Translations under genes and position numbers: made by a program
Part shown: positions 7,948 to 49,251 of the stretch, piece after piece
How positions within the stretch are numbered: position 1 is the first letter of the stretch
Layout of the letters: each line of letters starts with the position of its first letter
Assembly (NCBI RefSeq): GCF_003600645.1
Contig: NZ_CP032482.1
Span: 3,534,001 to 3,598,000, forward strand
Length of the DNA stretch: 64,000 bases
Direction of reading: 5' to 3'
Source of the DNA: Yersinia rochesterensis
GTDB taxonomy: Bacteria; Pseudomonadota; Gammaproteobacteria; Enterobacterales; Enterobacteriaceae
The notes under the pieces: model-generated
What the model saw: the letters and a program-made list of their open reading frames with translations, nothing else
What the model was told of the DNA's origin: nothing
Database searches by the model: none

Positions 7948-10900
7948 CAGTATCCCTCTTCTGTTGCGGTATCCGTTTTCTGAGCGCCACCGGTGGCATC
8001 CACGCTGAATATTTGCGTCGGTAAAACAAAATTACGCAGTTTCAGTAACGCCAGCGGACCTTCTCCGGCCTCGGTTCGTAGGGTGTAATTCAGCGGCCTG
8101 CCATCTGGCGCTTTCCAGGTAAGATTAAAGCTGCTGCTGACCCCCTGATACGGTGTGACCTGAGCCTTGTCCAGTAAACGGATCCACCCCCAGGCCCCAG
8201 AGAGATCAGCAAACTGTCGGGTACCGGCCTGCGTACTTATCCAGCTCAGGCTGGCACCAGGCGCTTCGGTATCATGGGGCCAGGTGAGACGTTTCCAGAC
8301 TGGCAACTGGTTGTAATAGCTGAGCTTCTGGCTGTCGATCACCAGATCAGTTTGCATCACATCTTTAGCGGTTCCGGGGCGCAGTTCAAAGCGGATGCCC
8401 GCTTCACCATCGGCAAACACCACATCAGACAAATAACTCAACTGATCTACGGCTTTCAGGAACGCCGGGTTAAATGTCAACCCCTGAGCATTGATGCTGT
8501 CCGGTACCCAATGGCTGCCCTCTTTGTGCAGCACGCCATTCAACCGAGTTTGCAGGAAGCGGGCGATACGGCCACTGTCGCTGTTGAGATAACGTGCCAG
8601 CAGCGGAAGTGATACTTCACTGCTGGTATCTTTTAACGGATAACGCCCGCCGAAGGTACTGTTCCAGTCATCGACAATAGATGCCTGCCACTGGGCATTC
8701 AGACTCTGGGCCGCAGGGGTTAATACCTGCTGCCACGCCTGTTCCATCGGCTGGACAAATACCGTCTGGCCAAATCCACTCCACTCCTGACCGAGGCTGG
8801 CGGCAACCAGGCTGCCGTAATCACGGGTTTCGGTCAGATCAACCGCTTTGCCCTGAAATACCGTCTGCGCCAGAGTCTGAGTCATGGCCTGAGGATCGGC
8901 GGCATTCACCACCTGCTGAAGTTTAAGCCGTACTTGGGTAACACGGGTCAGGAAGGTTTGTAGGCTGAGGTGGGTATTGCCCTGTCCGCCTGCCTTGACA
9001 TCCATCAGCGCCAGTACTGGACCGAAAGTGGCATCCAGCGGCCCCTGTGCCCCCGCTTGCTGATCAATGGCGGGCTGCCCATCGCGGTTTAACAGATTTT
9101 TGGCCGATTTCACCAACGAGTCAGACAACGCCTCACCGGTTTGCCCGGTTTTACCCTGTACGCTCAGGGTGTTCATTAACGCCACCAGAGGGGACTGACG
9201 CACGTCGGCCATCAGGGTGAGCTGGTCGATGGAGTCCGATAGCGTCTGTGCCTGCTGCCAGTGCAGACTGTTGAGAAAATCCAGCCAACGGGTGGAAAAG
9301 TCAGCGAAATAGCGCGCCTTCAAACGTGCCTGTAGGGCTTCGGGAGAATCCTGCTGCAACGCGGTATTTTTACTGTCACTCAGCACCCAGTCCATCTCTT
9401 CCCGACGCTCACTGGCCACTTTTTCAATCGCCGGTTTTACCGCATCATCCCAGGCTTTACGGGTGAACATGCCCGGCACGACGGCATCTGTGGTAAAGAT
9501 CCGTTCAGCATCGGTATCGCCCGTCATATCAGACAGGCGCAGATCAGCATACTGATTCGCCACCTGAGCCAGCATCTTCTGATAGAGCGAAGATTCACTG
9601 TTACGCGCCCCCATCTGACGGATCAGCCGGGTACGTACCTGACTGACCCGATTTTCATCCAACTTCAGACGCCAGGCTGGATGCTGGGAAAGATTACGGG
9701 CATAAAAATCCAGCAGCGCCGGACCGCTGCCCTGCCAGAGACTGTCCGGCACACCACTGCGCTGTGGCCAGTCATGAAGCAGCGTGGTGCTAAACCATGG
9801 CGCATCCATTTTCTCCGGACGCGCCAGCATCAAATAGAGTTTTAACTGCTCATACGCGGGTTTCACCAGCGTGTCGCGCAGCGGAGAGTCAGGGGGAAGC
9901 TGCGCCATGGTGATGAGTTGTTTTTCAAGGTGACGAGCGGCGGCATCACGCAGCAGAGGGGTGGCGCTGGCCCAATAATGTGGCCAGAGTGCGGCCAGCA
10001 AAGCATCATTCTGGCTCAGACCAAACCGGCTGTACCACGGTGCGCCCTGTTGCTGGCGATACTGCAATCTGTCTAACGTGTGTTGCATATCCAGTTGCGC
10101 TTGCAGACGGGCCGGAAGAGGCTGCTGCACGTTAGCCGCCCGTTTGACCTGAGATTCACTGGCATTAATCGTGTCTCGGTTGACCAGGAATGACATCACC
10201 ATGCCCACGCCCCACAACACCATGATGCCCGCCAGCACCATCGCCAGCGTTTTACGCCAGGCAAACCCCAGCTTTTTCGCGGCTAAGCCTGCGGGCAATA
10301 ATGGCAGTGAATCAATCAACACATCCCAGCGGTTATCCTTGCCCCAGTGGTGCTTCACGCTGCGTTTTGCATCGACGGATGCCGGGCTGAAGATAACCCC
10401 CGCCAGCGGTGAAGGGCGATACGGGTTCAGCAGCGTCGCAAGAGGGCCCGCGACAGAATCTGGCTGACGCGCTAACTGATCGGCCAGTTGCAACAAGAAT
10501 GGGTGCTGCGTGTTGCTGCTAATCTGTTGTGTACCCTGCTCAATCAGCGACGGCAACAACCCAGCAAGTTGCGTACTCAGTTCGTCCGGTTTACACCCTA
10601 CCGGCAGCAAACAACCCACGGATTGCGTGATGCGATCAGCCCCGCCATCGGCATGCAATGACCAGACATACAGCGGTAGCCGCCAGCCGAGGAGTTCATA
10701 GCGTGAAGCGAACGCCTGCGCCACGCTGTCCATCATATCGGTCGTGAGTGTTGTTTTAGATTCTTTCTGACCTAGCGCAGTGCGTTGAGCCAAGGCTGAG
10801 GTCACCCAGACCACGCCATCCAGCGGCCGGCGGCGCAACTTACGCAAGGCACTCAGCCAGGCGCTATCGGCCTGCGCCCCCAGATCGCCGCCCCACAACA

Positions 10901-11348
10901 GCACGGTGCCACGGTCTTCCTGCCAGTATTGCGACGTCAGGCCGGGGGTGAGTTGTTCAACATCCGCCGCACTACCGGTGAGTAGCAGGATGCGTACTTT
11001 GCGGGGCCAGAAGCGGCCGTAGGTATGGTGCAGGGCTTGTTGTAATTCAGCGACCGTGACATGACGGGGCGGTGTTTGGAGCAGGCGATCTTCACTGCCC
11101 GGCAATGCACGACTCTGCTGCGCCTTCCTACGGTGGAATTTTTCCTGAACGCTGCGAGCCATCACTGGAGAATAGCGTAGGAGAACCAGCACTATGCAAA
11201 TGATAGTCAACGCCAGTATCTGCTTTCCTGGAGTATCAATCCCAGCCAGTCGGCCATAGCGTATAATCAACCACCCAATGGCGGTGATCACGGCTAGCAC
11301 GATACCCACTCGTCCCAGACGACCGAACAGACTACCTGATGTGTTCAT
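7947..11348 (-). CDS. tssM: T6SS inner-membrane protein TssM (IcmF/VasK)
   Basis: This 1133-residue protein has two N-terminal transmembrane helices (VGIVLAVITAIGWLIIRYG and ILALTIICIVLVLLRY), a cytoplasmic domain, a third helix near residue 375 (TLAMVLAGIMVLWGVGMVM) and a long periplasmic part ending in the IcmF C-terminal domain. It is the central pillar of the TssJLM trans-envelope complex. In the cytoplasmic domain, where many TssM proteins carry a Walker A loop, I read ILLLTGSAADVEQL, which lacks the GxxxxGK[ST] signature. This TssM therefore probably lacks the NTPase site. It overlaps the upstream gene by 17 nt. Confidence 0.95.
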   Translation of the reverse strand: MNTSGSLFGRLGRVGIVLAVITAIGWLIIRYGRLAGIDTPGKQILALTIICIVLVLLRYSPVMARSVQEKFHRRKAQQSRALPGSEDRLLQTPPRHVTVAELQQALHHTYGRFWPRKVRILLLTGSAADVEQLTPGLTSQYWQEDRGTVLLWGGDLGAQADSAWLSALRKLRRRPLDGVVWVTSALAQRTALGQKESKTTLTTDMMDSVAQAFASRYELLGWRLPLYVWSLHADGGADRITQSVGCLLPVGCKPDELSTQLAGLLPSLIEQGTQQISSNTQHPFLLQLADQLARQPDSVAGPLATLLNPYRPSPLAGVIFSPASVDAKRSVKHHWGKDNRWDVLIDSLPLLPAGLAAKKLGFAWRKTLAMVLAGIMVLWGVGMVMSFLVNRDTINASESQVKRAANVQQPLPARLQAQLDMQHTLDRLQYRQQQGAPWYSRFGLSQNDALLAALWPHYWASATPLLRDAAARHLEKQLITMAQLPPDSPLRDTLVKPAYEQLKLYLMLARPEKMDAPWFSTTLLHDWPQRSGVPDSLWQGSGPALLDFYARNLSQHPAWRLKLDENRVSQVRTRLIRQMGARNSESSLYQKMLAQVANQYADLRLSDMTGDTDAERIFTTDAVVPGMFTRKAWDDAVKPAIEKVASERREEMDWVLSDSKNTALQQDSPEALQARLKARYFADFSTRWLDFLNSLHWQQAQTLSDSIDQLTLMADVRQSPLVALMNTLSVQGKTGQTGEALSDSLVKSAKNLLNRDGQPAIDQQAGAQGPLDATFGPVLALMDVKAGGQGNTHLSLQTFLTRVTQVRLKLQQVVNAADPQAMTQTLAQTVFQGKAVDLTETRDYGSLVAASLGQEWSGFGQTVFVQPMEQAWQQVLTPAAQSLNAQWQASIVDDWNSTFGGRYPLKDTSSEVSLPLLARYLNSDSGRIARFLQTRLNGVLHKEGSHWVPDSINAQGLTFNPAFLKAVDQLSYLSDVVFADGEAGIRFELRPGTAKDVMQTDLVIDSQKLSYYNQLPVWKRLTWPHDTEAPGASLSWISTQAGTRQFADLSGAWGWIRLLDKAQVTPYQGVSSSFNLTWKAPDGRPLNYTLRTEAGEGPLALLKLRNFVLPTQIFSVDATGGAQKTDTATEEGY

Positions 11349-12480
11349 CTTCGTTTCCTGATGTGACAGTACTGATAAAATGCTCTTCTCCTGAGGAGAA
11401 CAGTGTTAGCAATGACTCTTTACGGAGACTGACAAGTTCTACAGCCAGCGCGGTCAAAATCCAGGGTGCCAACGGTCCCGGAACACCACACCATTTTTCC
11501 AGCATCCCTCTTTCGGCGGGTTGCCAGACGGCACCGTGCGCAGCGCCGACGGTCATCAATGGTGCGGAAAATGTTTCCCAGAACAAAGCATCGCCGAGCA
11601 CACGGGCGCTGCCGCTGGCCGCAGTCTGAGTTGCCAAAAACAAGCTGATATCCTGCTCGAACGCAGTCATATCCAGAGGCATAGGTCGCAGCAGACGTGC
11701 CAAATGCGGCAGATGATATTTCTGCGCCACGTCATCACTGGTCAACAGCAATGCCGCCAGCCCATCGGAATATGTTTCATTACCCCTCAACTGCATCACC
11801 AGGATCAGATCGACCGTCAACACTGACTGTTTCAACCGTTCTTCCACATAGTTCAGGGACAAGGTATCCGTGACGGTGATGTCATTCGGAACCCTTCGCT
11901 CAGGAAATAACGTTGACCAGACCGCAGAAAAGGTTTCGACAAGGCAACCAGTGGGTAAATCAGTCACAATAGTGACACTGAGGGGGAGATCTTGCGGCAG
12001 ATCCTGTAGCGTTTTCTGTACGCCACTCAAACAGTATTTAACTGGCGTGCTAGTGTCTGATATCCGCCGAGTCAGCGTGCCTCGGGAAGGAAGACTGTCA
12101 CCTGTCGCCCCCAGAATAGCGTCTGCGGTTACGCCGTCCGGTAACAGAATGCCGCTTCCCAGAATAGCGAGATGACGCTCCGCCCAAACTTCCCATTGTT
12201 TCTGACCAAGATCGGCCTCTTTTTGCAGGAACGCATGTTCATCCACTTCTCGTCCCCACAGCCAGCCTCGCAGGCAGAACAGAAACAACCAGATACCCAG
12301 TGGGGTCAGTGAAATCCACCAGATATTGAATTCAGAAAGTGTCTTTACCGTTCCTGAGGCATGAAGGATAAACAACAGTACGCCCACGATCATCATCATG
12401 GCCCCTGCCAGCAGCCACCGTATCAGTGAAGGTGGCGGTGACAGTTCCGAGGTTAATGCTTTAGTTCGTTCCCAGCCCAT
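11332..12480 (-). CDS. T6SS-associated membrane protein of unknown function
   Basis: This 382-residue protein has two N-terminal transmembrane helices (LIRWLLAGAMMMIVGVLLFI and WWISLTPLGIWLFLFCLRGW) and then a soluble domain of about 300 residues, probably cytoplasmic. The region ILGSGILLPDGVTADAILG suggests a structured domain, but I recognise no catalytic motif. It is coupled to tssM by a 17-nt overlap and starts 3 nt after the PAAR gene. This arrangement suggests a role tied to the TssJLM complex or to PAAR/VgrG loading. I do not know a named family for it. Confidence 0.75.
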   Translation of the reverse strand: MGWERTKALTSELSPPPSLIRWLLAGAMMMIVGVLLFILHASGTVKTLSEFNIWWISLTPLGIWLFLFCLRGWLWGREVDEHAFLQKEADLGQKQWEVWAERHLAILGSGILLPDGVTADAILGATGDSLPSRGTLTRRISDTSTPVKYCLSGVQKTLQDLPQDLPLSVTIVTDLPTGCLVETFSAVWSTLFPERRVPNDITVTDTLSLNYVEERLKQSVLTVDLILVMQLRGNETYSDGLAALLLTSDDVAQKYHLPHLARLLRPMPLDMTAFEQDISLFLATQTAASGSARVLGDALFWETFSAPLMTVGAAHGAVWQPAERGMLEKWCGVPGPLAPWILTALAVELVSLRKESLLTLFSSGEEHFISTVTSGNEDEHIR

Positions 12481-12483
12481 TGA

Positions 12484-12750
12484 TTATCCTATCGTGCTGT
12501 TTGACGCACTAGAGATCACCTGACAACCGCACTGACATTTGCAGCCATCAATAACGACGGCACGGCCTCCACAGGTTCGTTGCGGCATACCTTCAACGAT
12601 CGGGTTTGTACCGTGCCCTTCAACTGGGCAGCTCACCATATCGCCTACTAATGCGGCCTTCTTGCCATTCACTGTAATTGTGGAAGAGGCGGAAATAACT
12701 GAACCGCCATGCGTTGTTTTATCACCGAGTAAAACGAGTCCTCTGGACAT
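12484..12750 (-). CDS. PAAR-domain spike tip protein
   Basis: An 88-residue single-domain PAAR protein. It shows the PAAR repeats (GLVLLGDKTTHGGSVISAS, ALVGDMVSCPVEGHG and RAVVIDGCKCQCGC) and the His/Cys residues that hold the zinc at the cone tip (H14, C42, H46, C69/C71). PAAR proteins sharpen the VgrG trimer and help carry effectors. No toxin domain is fused. The gene lies between the lipoprotein array and the tssM unit, closing the vgrG-effector-immunity block. Confidence 0.92.
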   Translation of the reverse strand: MSRGLVLLGDKTTHGGSVISASSTITVNGKKAALVGDMVSCPVEGHGTNPIVEGMPQRTCGGRAVVIDGCKCQCGCQVISSASNSTIG

Positions 12751-12872
12751 AATTAATTTCCAGGTAAATTAAATTTTTTAAATAGAATGGCGTTTAACTT
12801 TTATTTCATTCAGCCAGTTAAAACAAAAAAGGAATGGTATTTTGTGGATACAATATTTTTAATGGAACATAC

Positions 12873-12946
12873 CTCATAGATGATTTCAACTTTTACCTCC
12901 GTGATATATAAGAAGCAGGCAGTCCTATGTGTGGATTTTTTAATAA
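12873..12946 (-). pseudogene. 5' remnant and spacer of a deleted fourth lipoprotein copy
   Basis: The spacer between lipoprotein copies (CTCCGTGATATATAAGAAGC and on through the next stop codon) is present a third time here. Directly downstream of it in the gene direction I read GTTGAAATCATCTA, which matches the opening codons of the intact copies (ATTGAAATTATCTA). The ATGA of the start is replaced by TAAA. Similarity stops after about 15 nt. This looks like the scar of a further tandem copy that was deleted. The remaining sequence up to the PAAR gene is AT-rich and I see no gene in it. Confidence 0.55.
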
Positions 12947-45246: not shown

Positions 45247-46200
45247 TTACTGCGCGGAGGCTTGTTTATCCAACACTGAACTGATTTTATCCATCAGTTG
45301 CATATAACTCTGCACGCCACCGGCAATATAGAGCGAGGCAGAATCAAGATAAATTACGTGATTATTTTGCCATGCTTTGGTTTTATGAATCAGTGGGTTA
45401 TCCAGAACCTGTTGTGCTGACTGGTTTTCAGTACGGCCAATAGCATTATCGCGGTCAAGGACAAACAGCCATTCTGGATTGGCATCAAGAATAAATTCGG
45501 AGGTTACCACATTGCCATGATTACCGGCTTCAGTGAAACTGGCCGCTGGCGTAAATCCTAACTCATCAAAAATAAAACCAAAACGCGAGCCTGGTGTATA
45601 AGCAGACATTTTTCCACCACTGACCATCACTAACATGGCAGACCCAGCGTTAGCTGATTTCTGTTTGATAGCATTAATCTGAGCGGTAAATTTACCCAGC
45701 AGGGTTTTCGCTTCTTCTTCTTTACCAAAGATAGAGGCTAATTGCTCCGTACGTTGAGTCAGACTTTGGGTAAAATTCTTAGGATCGATATCCAGTGAGA
45801 TGGTCGGGGCAAGAGCGCTAAGTTTGTCATAGGTATCTTGAGCACGACCGCCCGCAATAATTAGGTCAGGTTTAGCCTGGCTAAGAGCTTCATAATCCGG
45901 TTCAAATAATGTGCCCGCATTCAGATATTCTGCACCCGTGTATTTGGATAAAAAGGCCGGAAGATGGGTGCTGGTCTGGGGTACACCGGCTACTTTGATA
46001 TTCAGAGCGTCGGCAATATCCAATGTCGAGGGGTTCAATATGATGACTTTTTGCGGATTAAGCGGAACCTGAGTAGTACCTTGTGCGTGCTCGATAGTGA
46101 TTTTTGATGTTTCTTCAGGGGTCACAGAGGAATTATCACACCCGGTAAGCACAGCAGTCAGTGCCAGTAATGATGAAAATAAAGCTAAACGTAATCGCAT
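45247..46200 (-). CDS. Siderophore-binding periplasmic lipoprotein
   Basis: 317 residues from the ATG at 46200 (AGGAGA seven bases upstream). Upstream in-frame codons overlap the promoter region and are rejected. Signal MRLRLALFSSLLALTAVLTG with lipobox Cys is followed by a class III binding fold (VIILNPSTLDIADALNIKVAG, KPDLIIAGGRAQ, EFILDANPEWLFVLDRDNAIG), as in CeuE/FatB/YclQ proteins. Lipid anchoring is usual for this subgroup. It heads the importer operon, and a Fur-box-like site lies 45 nt upstream of its start. Confidence 0.93.
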   Translation of the reverse strand: MRLRLALFSSLLALTAVLTGCDNSSVTPEETSKITIEHAQGTTQVPLNPQKVIILNPSTLDIADALNIKVAGVPQTSTHLPAFLSKYTGAEYLNAGTLFEPDYEALSQAKPDLIIAGGRAQDTYDKLSALAPTISLDIDPKNFTQSLTQRTEQLASIFGKEEEAKTLLGKFTAQINAIKQKSANAGSAMLVMVSGGKMSAYTPGSRFGFIFDELGFTPAASFTEAGNHGNVVTSEFILDANPEWLFVLDRDNAIGRTENQSAQQVLDNPLIHKTKAWQNNHVIYLDSASLYIAGGVQSYMQLMDKISSVLDKQASAQ

Positions 46201-46309: not shown

Positions 46310-46329
46310 AAGCCCGCGAATGCGGGCTT
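46310..46329 (-). terminator. Rho-independent terminator after the P450-like gene
   Basis: Perfect 8-bp arms AAGCCCGC and GCGGGCTT with loop GAAT (plus-strand reading). On the minus strand the stem is followed by TTTTATC. It lies 17 nt after the P450 stop and separates that gene from the Fur-type promoter of the importer. Confidence 0.88.
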
Positions 46330-46345: not shown

Positions 46346-47929
46346 TTAACGACTAAAACCAATATTGTCATCAATGACGGCATTGGGGCCAATAGGCACT
46401 CGGCCTGGTTTGCCCAGTTGCAGTTTATTGAACACAATTTTGTCCCGCCATACTTTACGCAGAAAATCTTCAAACACCTGAATAGTCAATTGCTCACCAG
46501 GGCAGCGGCGATAACTGAACCCAAAAGGTGCAAATCCTGCATAGTCACATACAGGTTTTGCTTTGCCGTCTACTACACCAAATACTGTACCAAAACCGCT
46601 GTTCGTCACCGCAACATTGCGGCCATCTTTTACCTCCAGTGAGGTGATATCAAACGGGCAACGAGCAAGGCCAATTTGCTGACATTTTTCTTCGGTTATT
46701 TCAGCGCTAGTGGGAACTTTAAGATAGCGATCGGGGGAGAAATCGTCAGGATCTTTCCAGTGAACAGGGCTAAAACTGGTGCTGGTATGTGGTGTGCTGA
46801 TATAACTGTGGCGCTCAAAAGGTAGACCAAATCGTTTGTGAGGCGACTCCCCATAAGCGGAGGTTCGCGCATCTTCAACCGCAGAAATACTGCCGCCATT
46901 CGGTGAGATAGTGCGGAATAACTCCATGACAAATAATTCTAATGGTGTGTAAGGTGCACCATTGGCATTATCGAAATCACCACTCATGGTTTTTTTAAAT
47001 GCTTCTCGTACTGTCGGATCGCCTTCATTTTCACTCAACCGCGACATAATACCGAATAAGGTATTGCCCCACTGGCTGAAAGCCACAAAGTTATGGAAGC
47101 ATTCAAACACGATATCTTTCTTACTGAAGTTTTCACCATTACCGGCATTTTTCAACCAATACCACGCCATGGTTTTTTCTGGATTAGCCGTCCGCCCGTT
47201 GTTGATGTCATCAACACGTTCATCAATCCATTGTTTGAGGAAATCGAGTTGTTTGCGTACTGTCATGTAGTTTTCATAAACAATCGGCTGTAATGGATCA
47301 CGGTAGGCTAATACCGTATTGAATGACTCACCAATCTCTCGGACTTGTTTCGGGATGGCATCACCTTTAACCCCTAAATGTAGATCCCAATAAATATCAA
47401 AATAGTAATCCAAATAGTGGCGCATAAAGGGTTTGTTGGCGAACTGTGGCTCCATTAATTGATCGAAAAATGCCACCACTTTATCCCCATACATCGGGCG
47501 GTACAGATCCGGTGTCACTGCTGTGAAATAGATACGTTTACGAAGATTATGTTCTCCACGTTCCTCTAAACCTTGCAGAAAAACCGTCACCCCTTCAGAG
47601 GGCGTGGGTTTCCAATCTTTATAAATCAAGCCCCAAAGGTCATAAGGTAAGGCGTTCTCTTTAGTAAAATTCAGATCGATCATTGGTAGCATCGGCCTTT
47701 CACCCTCATAAAAACTAGTCAGGAAGAAAGGGACGACGGCATTTTCTACATAAGCTCTATCAAAATTAGCGGGAATAGTTTCACGAAAACGTGCCAGCGC
47801 AGCTGCTATTTTATCTGGCAATGCATGCTCTCCTGTTGCTGCATTACCTGCTGCCACGGCTCCGGCGGTGGATGTCCCAGCAGCTAAGCCTAACGCTGCA
47901 GCTCCTTTCAAGAATGTACGTCTTTCCAT
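46346..47929 (-). CDS. Tat-exported cytochrome P450-like protein
   Basis: 527 residues from the ATG at 47929. The upstream in-frame ATG is rejected because its codons form the ribosome binding site GAGGAG. The N-terminus MERRTFLKGAAALGLAAG is a twin-arginine signal, and cleavage is likely in AGAVAAG. P450 landmarks are a K-helix ExxR (ELFR, 336-339), a PERF-like HWKDPDDFSPDRYL (390-403) and a Cys-ligand loop FGFSYRRCPGEQL (F469, R474, C476, G478), in which the usual first Gly is Ser. The I-helix region ECFHNFVAFSQWGNTLFG lacks the common AGxDTT. Some 65 residues separate PERF and the haem loop, against about 20-25 in classic P450s. A periplasmic location is unusual for a P450. The reaction is unknown. 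Confidence 0.82.
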   Translation of the reverse strand: MERRTFLKGAAALGLAAGTSTAGAVAAGNAATGEHALPDKIAAALARFRETIPANFDRAYVENAVVPFFLTSFYEGERPMLPMIDLNFTKENALPYDLWGLIYKDWKPTPSEGVTVFLQGLEERGEHNLRKRIYFTAVTPDLYRPMYGDKVVAFFDQLMEPQFANKPFMRHYLDYYFDIYWDLHLGVKGDAIPKQVREIGESFNTVLAYRDPLQPIVYENYMTVRKQLDFLKQWIDERVDDINNGRTANPEKTMAWYWLKNAGNGENFSKKDIVFECFHNFVAFSQWGNTLFGIMSRLSENEGDPTVREAFKKTMSGDFDNANGAPYTPLELFVMELFRTISPNGGSISAVEDARTSAYGESPHKRFGLPFERHSYISTPHTSTSFSPVHWKDPDDFSPDRYLKVPTSAEITEEKCQQIGLARCPFDITSLEVKDGRNVAVTNSGFGTVFGVVDGKAKPVCDYAGFAPFGFSYRRCPGEQLTIQVFEDFLRKVWRDKIVFNKLQLGKPGRVPIGPNAVIDDNIGFSR

Positions 47930-48348: not shown

Positions 48349-49251
48349 TTACCAAAACTGGCGTAGAGTCATCCTGATAGTTTGGGATTCAGGCTGCTGT
48401 GAGGGTTTAGCAACAACACGTTCGTAATTCACAATAATATCACCGCCGCCCCAAGCTCTTATGCCGATTCCCGTGCCTAATCTCAAGGTATTGGCCGCAT
48501 TATCCTGAGCGAGATTATCAATATGAGTTTCACCACCGACATTGTAATAACTATCCAAAGATAGCCATATTTCAGGTGTAATATTACGGCTGGCATGACC
48601 TTCAATGATAACTAATGGATCTTGCCCGAGCTTAGAGGCACCCGCGACCTGATAATTATCATTAGTGGTAAATACCGTCGTGGTGATATAGGTCTAAAGC
48701 CACGTCCAGCCTTGGTCTGGCGTATAACTATAATTCACTGTCGGCGAGAAAACCCAGCGGTTTGAACTCGGGTTAAGAGCAGAGTGAGCATCATATTCAC
48801 CCAATGGGGTTCCAAGATAAAAATGAAAACTGGAGAATGTCTCAGGAATAAAAGATCGAAATTGTTCGCGACTCAATGCCGGGCCGCCAAATAAATTTAT
48901 CTGCCACAACATGCCAATATCAGAGATTCCTCGAGTAGAAGCGCGAAAGTCACCGGAATGGGTTTCAACATAGCGATAAGGGAGCACCAAAGAAAGACCG
49001 CCCGTCCTCCCCCAGTAATCCATCGTCCGAGTAAGCATAAAAGATTGAGATAATACATTTGCCCTAACATCAGAGGTAATATCCATACCATCTTCGGGTG
49101 TCACCGATGATGAATAACCTGCATTGTAAAATCCAAGCCACGCATCAATAGGTGCATTCAAATAATCTCGAGCAGACCCACAAAGAGCAGTGATGGGGAG
49201 AAAAGCCGCGGTAAGATAAACTAATGGGTATAATCTGAGATAAATATACAT
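48349..49251 (-). pseudogene. Outer-membrane beta-barrel protein (phenol MetA-pathway type), interrupted by TAG
   Basis: One reading frame encodes a signal peptide (YPLVYLTAAFLPITALCG) and a beta-barrel of the Phenol_MetA_deg type. It runs to WTWL, then TAG at 48694-48696, then continues in the same frame with TYITTTVFTTNDNYQV to a normal end TLRQFW. The C-terminal Phe-Trp end is typical of outer-membrane barrels. Without the TAG the product is about 300 residues. A single base change explains it. It is next to the P450-like gene on the same strand and could have served substrate passage. It could also be read by suppression. Confidence 0.8.

Follow-up and report, generated by a model that had tools for sequence, protein, structure and literature searches.

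Cytochrome P450s (P450s) are usually cytosolic or on internal membranes and tied to reductases. In the P450 peroxygenases an Arg-Pro pair replaces the acid-alcohol pair, and the CYP152 enzymes are described as driven by H2O2 without partners (PMC5818669); the CYP74 clan is described as consisting of nonclassical P450s independent of O2 and of a reductase (PMC10813956). Outside these groups, the EfeB/YcdB DyP peroxidases are reported as haem enzymes exported by the twin-arginine translocation (Tat) system, so that Tat export of a haem-loaded P450 would have a precedent (PMC8197335), and Tat signals are reported on laccases (PMC8556283). Here we analyze a 64,000-nucleotide stretch of Yersinia rochesterensis DNA (contig NZ_CP032482.1, positions 3,534,001 to 3,598,000; the whole stretch is referred to as the window) and in it a gene at 46346..47929, predicted from its reading frame, alignment, profiles, structural model and selection pattern to encode an exported P450-like protein of 527 residues (P0001).

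Read jointly, the findings are most simply those of an envelope enzyme that would combine a Tat-exported P450, a channel for hydrophobic molecules and a peroxide. The protein would fold and take up haem in the cytoplasm, leave it by the Tat system and work in the periplasm, where it would oxidize or isomerize a hydrophobic small molecule; the oxidant would be hydrogen peroxide or an organic hydroperoxide and not O2 with electrons from NAD(P)H, and in one branch the substrate would enter through its own outer-membrane channel, of the COG4313 type and encoded by an adjacent gene. The fold with its motifs, the leader and the channel neighbor were computed, and from there we infer export, haem binding, peroxide use and substrate class. 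Taken as a whole, we consider this reading to be about evenly poised between right and wrong, its export half being much firmer than its chemistry half.

P450 membership and active site

The open reading frame (ORF) runs on the minus strand, as do all features described below, from 47929 down to 46346, and its N-terminus reads MERRTFLKGAAALGLAAGTSTAGAVAAG.... The protein carries the P450 landmarks exactly where the original prediction, made from the sequence alone, had placed them: the K-helix ExxR (E336-L-F-R339, 46913..46924), the PERF-type motif FSPDRY (residues 397–402, 46724..46741, within DPDDFSPDRYL from D393) and the haem-thiolate loop FGFSYRRCPG (46496..46525) with the putative ligand C476 at 46504–46502. 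We aligned the protein with 72 loci from L001–L087, after dropping eight as broken or cut (L029, L046, L050, L051, L052, L059, L063, L075) and seven as duplicates (L001, L015, equal to L014, L081–L084, L086), and found E336, R339 and C476 to be invariant in all 73 rows. Of 240 database relatives, 235 have the pattern FGF[GSA]YRRCxG, and the remaining five differ from it slightly.

Against the Pfam p450 profile (PF00067), the window protein alone scored 15.5 bits, below the cut-off of 22.8. Despite this, P450 identity is beyond chance, as 52 of 52 family members matched the profile at E ≤ 0.01 (best 2.8e-8) and the ExxR residues and the cysteine are invariant. Profile–profile comparison with ordinary bacterial P450s gave 402 columns with a probability of 97.2 and an E-value of 3.5e-11; with the two CYP152-type sequences used (L089 and L090, L091 having failed the ORF filter), the values were 91.1 and 1e-6. 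The AlphaFold2 model (pLDDT 85.5, pTM 0.86, with low confidence in the first 35 residues) resembled P450s in both structure searches, in line with the P450-like protein originally proposed and with the fold comparison suggested as its check: P450s appeared throughout the 50 matches listed per search, although three titles named only the enzyme. Foldseek TM-scores of 0.42–0.61 indicate that the protein, as modeled, is a divergent P450. Computation thus supports fold, motifs and membership, and the protein is predicted to bind haem. The gene is under strong purifying selection, with a nonsynonymous divergence (dN) of 0.016, a synonymous divergence (dS) of 1.21 and a dN/dS of 0.014 in comparison with the Yersinia frederiksenii copy (L002). 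The PF00067 search also found a second P450 in the same genome (L088), which is of the ordinary type with AGLET on the I-helix.

The predicted I-helix (residues 270–298, 47036..47122) is split in the model into segments 270–284 and 286–298, and because of the break at 285 the groove is probably A283-F-S-Q286-W287-G288. Invariant in the helix are E276-C-F-H279-N280-F, A283 and Q286-W287-G288 (E276, H279, N280, Q286 and W287 in 73/73 rows). The acid-alcohol pair, [AG]Gx[DE]T, was absent from residues 181–340 in all 240 relatives. No Arg-Pro pair was found in residues 268–298 of the window protein, positions 286–287 being Q-W in every row, and its sequence contains no PCP motif. A long stretch, residues 403–458 (46556..46723), lies between the PERF motif and the haem loop and includes an insert of about 50 residues: the distance from PERF to the cysteine was 65–73 in 239 of the 241 proteins measured, compared with 18–30 in 20 of 34 reference P450s, the pattern being absent or misplaced in the other 14. 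(The reference set comprises those of loci L088–L132 that passed an ORF filter; it may count a few genes twice, L127 and L132 being equal in length.) Redox partners usually dock near the region just before the haem loop. Without the Arg-Pro pair and with only a doubtful Asn in the groove, the family was placed in neither the P450 peroxygenases nor CYP74. A disulfide tied to export was considered and rejected: C424 is present in 46/46 Tat rows and 26/27 others, C461 in 45/46 and 23/27, and being conserved in leaderless relatives as well, neither tracks export.

The groove is where an exported hydroperoxide isomerase or lyase of the CYP74 kind, rearranging lipid hydroperoxides from outside with no added oxidant, draws its support. 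The I-helix sequence FSQWGN resembles the FN-type groove of this clan, which includes allene oxide synthase and hydroperoxide lyase and also occurs in some Proteobacteria; N280 is invariant, and one of the 73 rows has Asn at 285. In the CYP74 clan, a conserved groove Asn is described as starting O–O cleavage (PMC8124189), and the enzymes are reported to work independently of O2 and of redox partners (PMC10813956). However, position 285, in the probable register, is Ser in 72/73 rows, the insert of about 50 residues compares with a nine-residue haem-domain insertion in CYP74, and no lipoxygenase was found among the neighbors scanned or listed. CYP74 was also missing from the 51 PDB sequences at E ≤ 1. 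It was missing too from the best 50 matches of each structure search, an absence that excludes nothing. We judge this alternative to be unlikely.

An exported P450 of the usual O2-dependent monooxygenase type, receiving electrons from a periplasmic donor, appears distinctly unlikely. It would account for the fold and landmarks; 14 of the 34 reference P450s likewise lack the O2-motif pattern used, and flavoenzymes adjoin the P450 in a few loci. Against it stand the presence of [AG]Gx[DE]T in 0/240 relatives, the long insert directly before the haem loop and near the usual partner-docking region, and the lack of any recurring redox-partner family among the 25 of 110 neighbor families listed.

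The twin-arginine leader

Residues 1–26 (47852..47929) form a predicted twin-arginine leader, with ERRTFLK followed by an Ala/Gly stretch and a putative cleavage site at A24-V-A26. A simple rule for twin-arginine leaders that we devised ourselves matched the window protein and 45 of 72 full-length family members; the same rule matched none of the 34 reference P450s, 21 of 1,067 other ORFs of at least 250 residues taken from the family loci and 48 of 9,000 shuffled N-termini. When 80 loci were labeled, 47 had a Tat leader, 28 had none and five were cut; flanks of 1.5 kb or more on either side were available for 43 of the Tat loci and 24 of the leaderless ones. A leader was present in 114 of the best 120 relatives of the window protein and in 46 of the best 120 relatives of the distant L079 protein.

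On the 73-row tree, the leader label requires three changes. It is found in 45 of the 46 rows of one clade, which holds Proteobacteria, mycobacteria, an Actinomycetota bin and a Verrucomicrobiota bin; L054 is the sole row of the clade without it, and Falsiroseomonas L057 is a leader row outside the clade. Leaderless relatives come from cyanobacteria, Ktedonobacter, Nannocystis, streptomycetes and Massilia. As the tree is unrooted, gain and loss of the leader are indistinguishable. Actinobacterial members of the clade have a lipobox-like Cys at the lipoprotein cleavage position. One relative, L060, from a bin called a Nitrososphaeraceae archaeon, groups with Ktedonobacter, reflecting either transfer or a binning error.

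The Tat-type signal proposed in the original prediction is thus present and, by sequence, conserved within the clade, and TatC is encoded in the genome of the window; the P450 is predicted to be exported. If the protein were instead a soluble cytoplasmic P450 with a decorative RR motif, the 27 leaderless rows of the tree and the poor performance of curated Tat profiles, which fall below cut-off for the window protein and match few members (TAT_signal 5/52 at E ≤ 0.01; 2/51 in a second count), would be readily understood, but the retention of the leader in all but one row of the clade, the lipobox-like Cys of the actinobacterial rows and the lack of leaders among reference P450s make this quite improbable.

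Neighboring genes and distribution

The barrel protein of the original prediction holds up as a recurrent neighbor of the P450. The COG4313/PF13557 outer-membrane channel gene of the window (48352..49251; open part 49251–48694, 185 residues) lies with the end of its open part 765 bases from the P450, and its open part scores 39.7 bits against PF13557 (cut-off 22) and has, by eye, a Sec-type leader. The frame resembles a Y. frederiksenii protein (89% identity) down to 48352, past an in-frame TAG, and is intact in four other genomes of the genus. A barrel of this family lies 3–424 bases from the P450 in nine loci (L002, L003, L005, L012, L013, L014, L026, L028, L085). The layout varies: in Yersinia the barrel is upstream in the same direction, in Paraburkholderia, Serratia, Bordetella petrii and a Hyphomicrobiales bin it is downstream in the same direction, and in three alphaproteobacterial bins it is downstream and convergent. 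Seven P450-adjacent barrels measured were 62–97% identical to that of Y. frederiksenii. On plasmids, both barrels with at least 60% identity adjoin a P450, and the other six (27–33%) are on records without a detected P450 relative. Within the genus, five of 25 genomes have the barrel, all five with the P450 close by, and the barrel is missing from two genomes that have a full-length P450. More widely, PF13557 is sparse: a count over 40 genomes gave 13 genes, spread over 11 of them, and the genome of the window yielded no PF13557 gene besides the one described here. For a gene so sparse overall and yet repeatedly beside the P450, adjacency is poorly explained by chance. COG4313 proteins are described as channels for hydrophobic molecules (PMC9581022), and one such gene is reported to share an operon for indole oxidation with a regulator of the AraC/XylS type (PMC4577076).

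Our neighbor tally covered 129 proteins from 70 loci and left out ORFs above 800 residues, so that the channel of L026 is not counted. AraC-type regulators were the next most frequent neighbors (7/129). Among the alphaproteobacteria they stand beside the P450 in L024, L038, L043, L044 and L073, L038 having been scanned and the rest clustered with it. A lipoxygenase or haem-dioxygenase partner, as expected of an oxylipin pathway, was rejected, with none among the neighbors scanned or the families listed. Large neighboring ORFs matched MutL, mannosyltransferase-type, amine-oxidase, BTAD/NB-ARC, DUF6701, ATP-grasp or adenylate-cyclase proteins, or nothing. The mycobacterial locus L039 has downstream an ORF of 771 residues (10589–12904) that has no Pfam match and looks sensor-kinase-like by eye; similar ORFs are near the P450 in L037 and L074. 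Two neighboring ORFs in high-GC (guanine–cytosine) DNA, in L008 (332 residues) and L062 (544 residues), resemble shadow frames by composition.

On its other side, the P450 gene is separated by a terminator-like hairpin (46310..46329) from a siderophore-type substrate-binding lipoprotein (45247..46200), which we judged to be outside the system; such hairpins are not enriched in the region (four, with a shuffle mean of 4.0). A listed TTG start at 46473 would make the lipoprotein gene overlap the P450, and the ATG at 46200 is far more likely. The siderophore importer that the original prediction had made part of the arrangement did not withstand comparison: an importer is next to the P450 only in the window, L002 and L003, and Peripla_BP_2 was found in 2/129 neighbor proteins. 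The binding-protein gene clusters with neighbors of L002 and L003 and not with those of Yersinia nurmii L009, and in L080 one FecCD-type homolog is found some 7 kb away from the P450. An exported haem protein without P450 chemistry (a haem carrier, a sink for peroxide or nitric oxide, or an iron-handling partner of the importer) is very improbable, as the importer that favors it is not beside the gene in other loci and the near-invariance of residues 272–288, where 14 of 17 positions deviate in no more than one of the 73 rows, argues for catalysis.

The P450 gene itself is rare and patchy. Named relatives are those of Y. frederiksenii (97%) and Yersinia alsatica (96%), and a genome of the genus (G305) has a copy with 99% identity. 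A full-length gene was found in seven of 25 genus genomes, two more having fragments or a weak N-terminal match, in five of 295 family genomes and in one of 398 phylum genomes, the last being that of the window. A decayed-looking remnant, with short matches and stop codons, was seen in genus genome G314 (C139:17275–17507). The match and N-terminus of L018, recorded as Martelella alba BGMRC 2031, equal those of a genome of the window's family (G236/L083), and the species name may therefore be wrong.

Weighing the reading against known systems

Several observations weigh against a Tat-exported, peroxide-driven and channel-fed P450. On the side of export, the window protein scores 19 bits against Pfam TAT_signal (cut-off 22.7) and 13.6 bits against TIGR01409 (cut-off 16.7). 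On the side of chemistry, the argument for a reductase-free step is built on the missing motif and the insert, two features that do not track export, since leaderless relatives have both. Motif absence is not a clean test either, because 14 of 34 reference P450s also fail the looser pattern [AG]Gx[DE][TS], found in the other 20, and the I-helix register was inferred from the kink and helix length, the profile alignment being gapped there. Flavoenzyme neighbors include a flavin mononucleotide oxidoreductase at L047 and an amine-oxidase type at L079, the luciferase-type and dihydroorotate-dehydrogenase families each account for 2/129 neighbors, and with 25 of 110 neighbor families listed, single redox partners may occur. 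The channel gene, finally, is absent from 38 of the 47 Tat loci, and that of the window is interrupted after 185 codons by the TAG at 48696–48694.

Among P450s, CYP120A1 of cyanobacteria was the top Foldseek match (2ve3_B, E 2.8e-8, TM-scores 0.51/0.61) at 15% identity, and is not known to have a Tat leader. The CYP152 enzymes (P450 BS-beta, OleT, SP-alpha) share the fold, with several chains in both structure lists, and are the nearest curated model by count, NF053744 being matched by 10 of 51 members at E ≤ 0.001 (best 1.5e-7). The window protein differs in scoring 13 bits against that model's cut-off of 600, in lacking the I-helix Arg-Pro and in having a Tat leader and the long insert; CYP152 enzymes are not known to be exported. 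The CYP74 clan shares a similar-looking groove and differs at position 285 and in the type of insert. EfeB/YcdB, which share Tat export of a haem enzyme, have a DyP fold and His-ligated haem. The neighbor barrels belong to PF13557 like the COG4313 channels TcpY and Pput2725, for which the passages of PMC9581022 and PMC4577076 relied on here report no exported-enzyme partner.

The claim of an undescribed arrangement stands within limits. The open-licence literature, a weak test of absence, yielded no study of this exported family; papers retrieved on exported or periplasmic P450s dealt, by their titles, with fungi and trees. In databases, the names "cytochrome P450" and "twin-arginine translocation signal domain-containing protein" are already in use for some members. 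A secretome prediction counts Mycobacterium tuberculosis CYP139 as secreted (PMC5293778). If real, an exported branch conserved in this way would revise ideas of where in the cell P450 chemistry can take place, predict the use of peroxide or hydroperoxide and offer partner-free P450s for biocatalysis. The leaderless members of the family offer a direct comparison by which export can be tested.

The closest functional analogs are the bacterial unspecific peroxygenases (described in 2026) and the fungal unspecific peroxygenases, haem-thiolate enzymes that are peroxide-driven and in many cases have export signals (PMC13394420). They differ in a fold unrelated to P450s and in their PCP motif, and the signals predicted in two clades are of the Sec type (PMC13394420). 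With confidence somewhat short of even, we propose that the family includes a widespread bacterial branch of Tat-exported, peroxide-driven envelope P450s, in which one sub-branch would modify a hydrophobic compound between the membranes with the help of its own outer-membrane channel and a mycobacterial branch would be anchored as lipoproteins, and that this branch may be the P450-fold counterpart of the secreted fungal peroxygenases.
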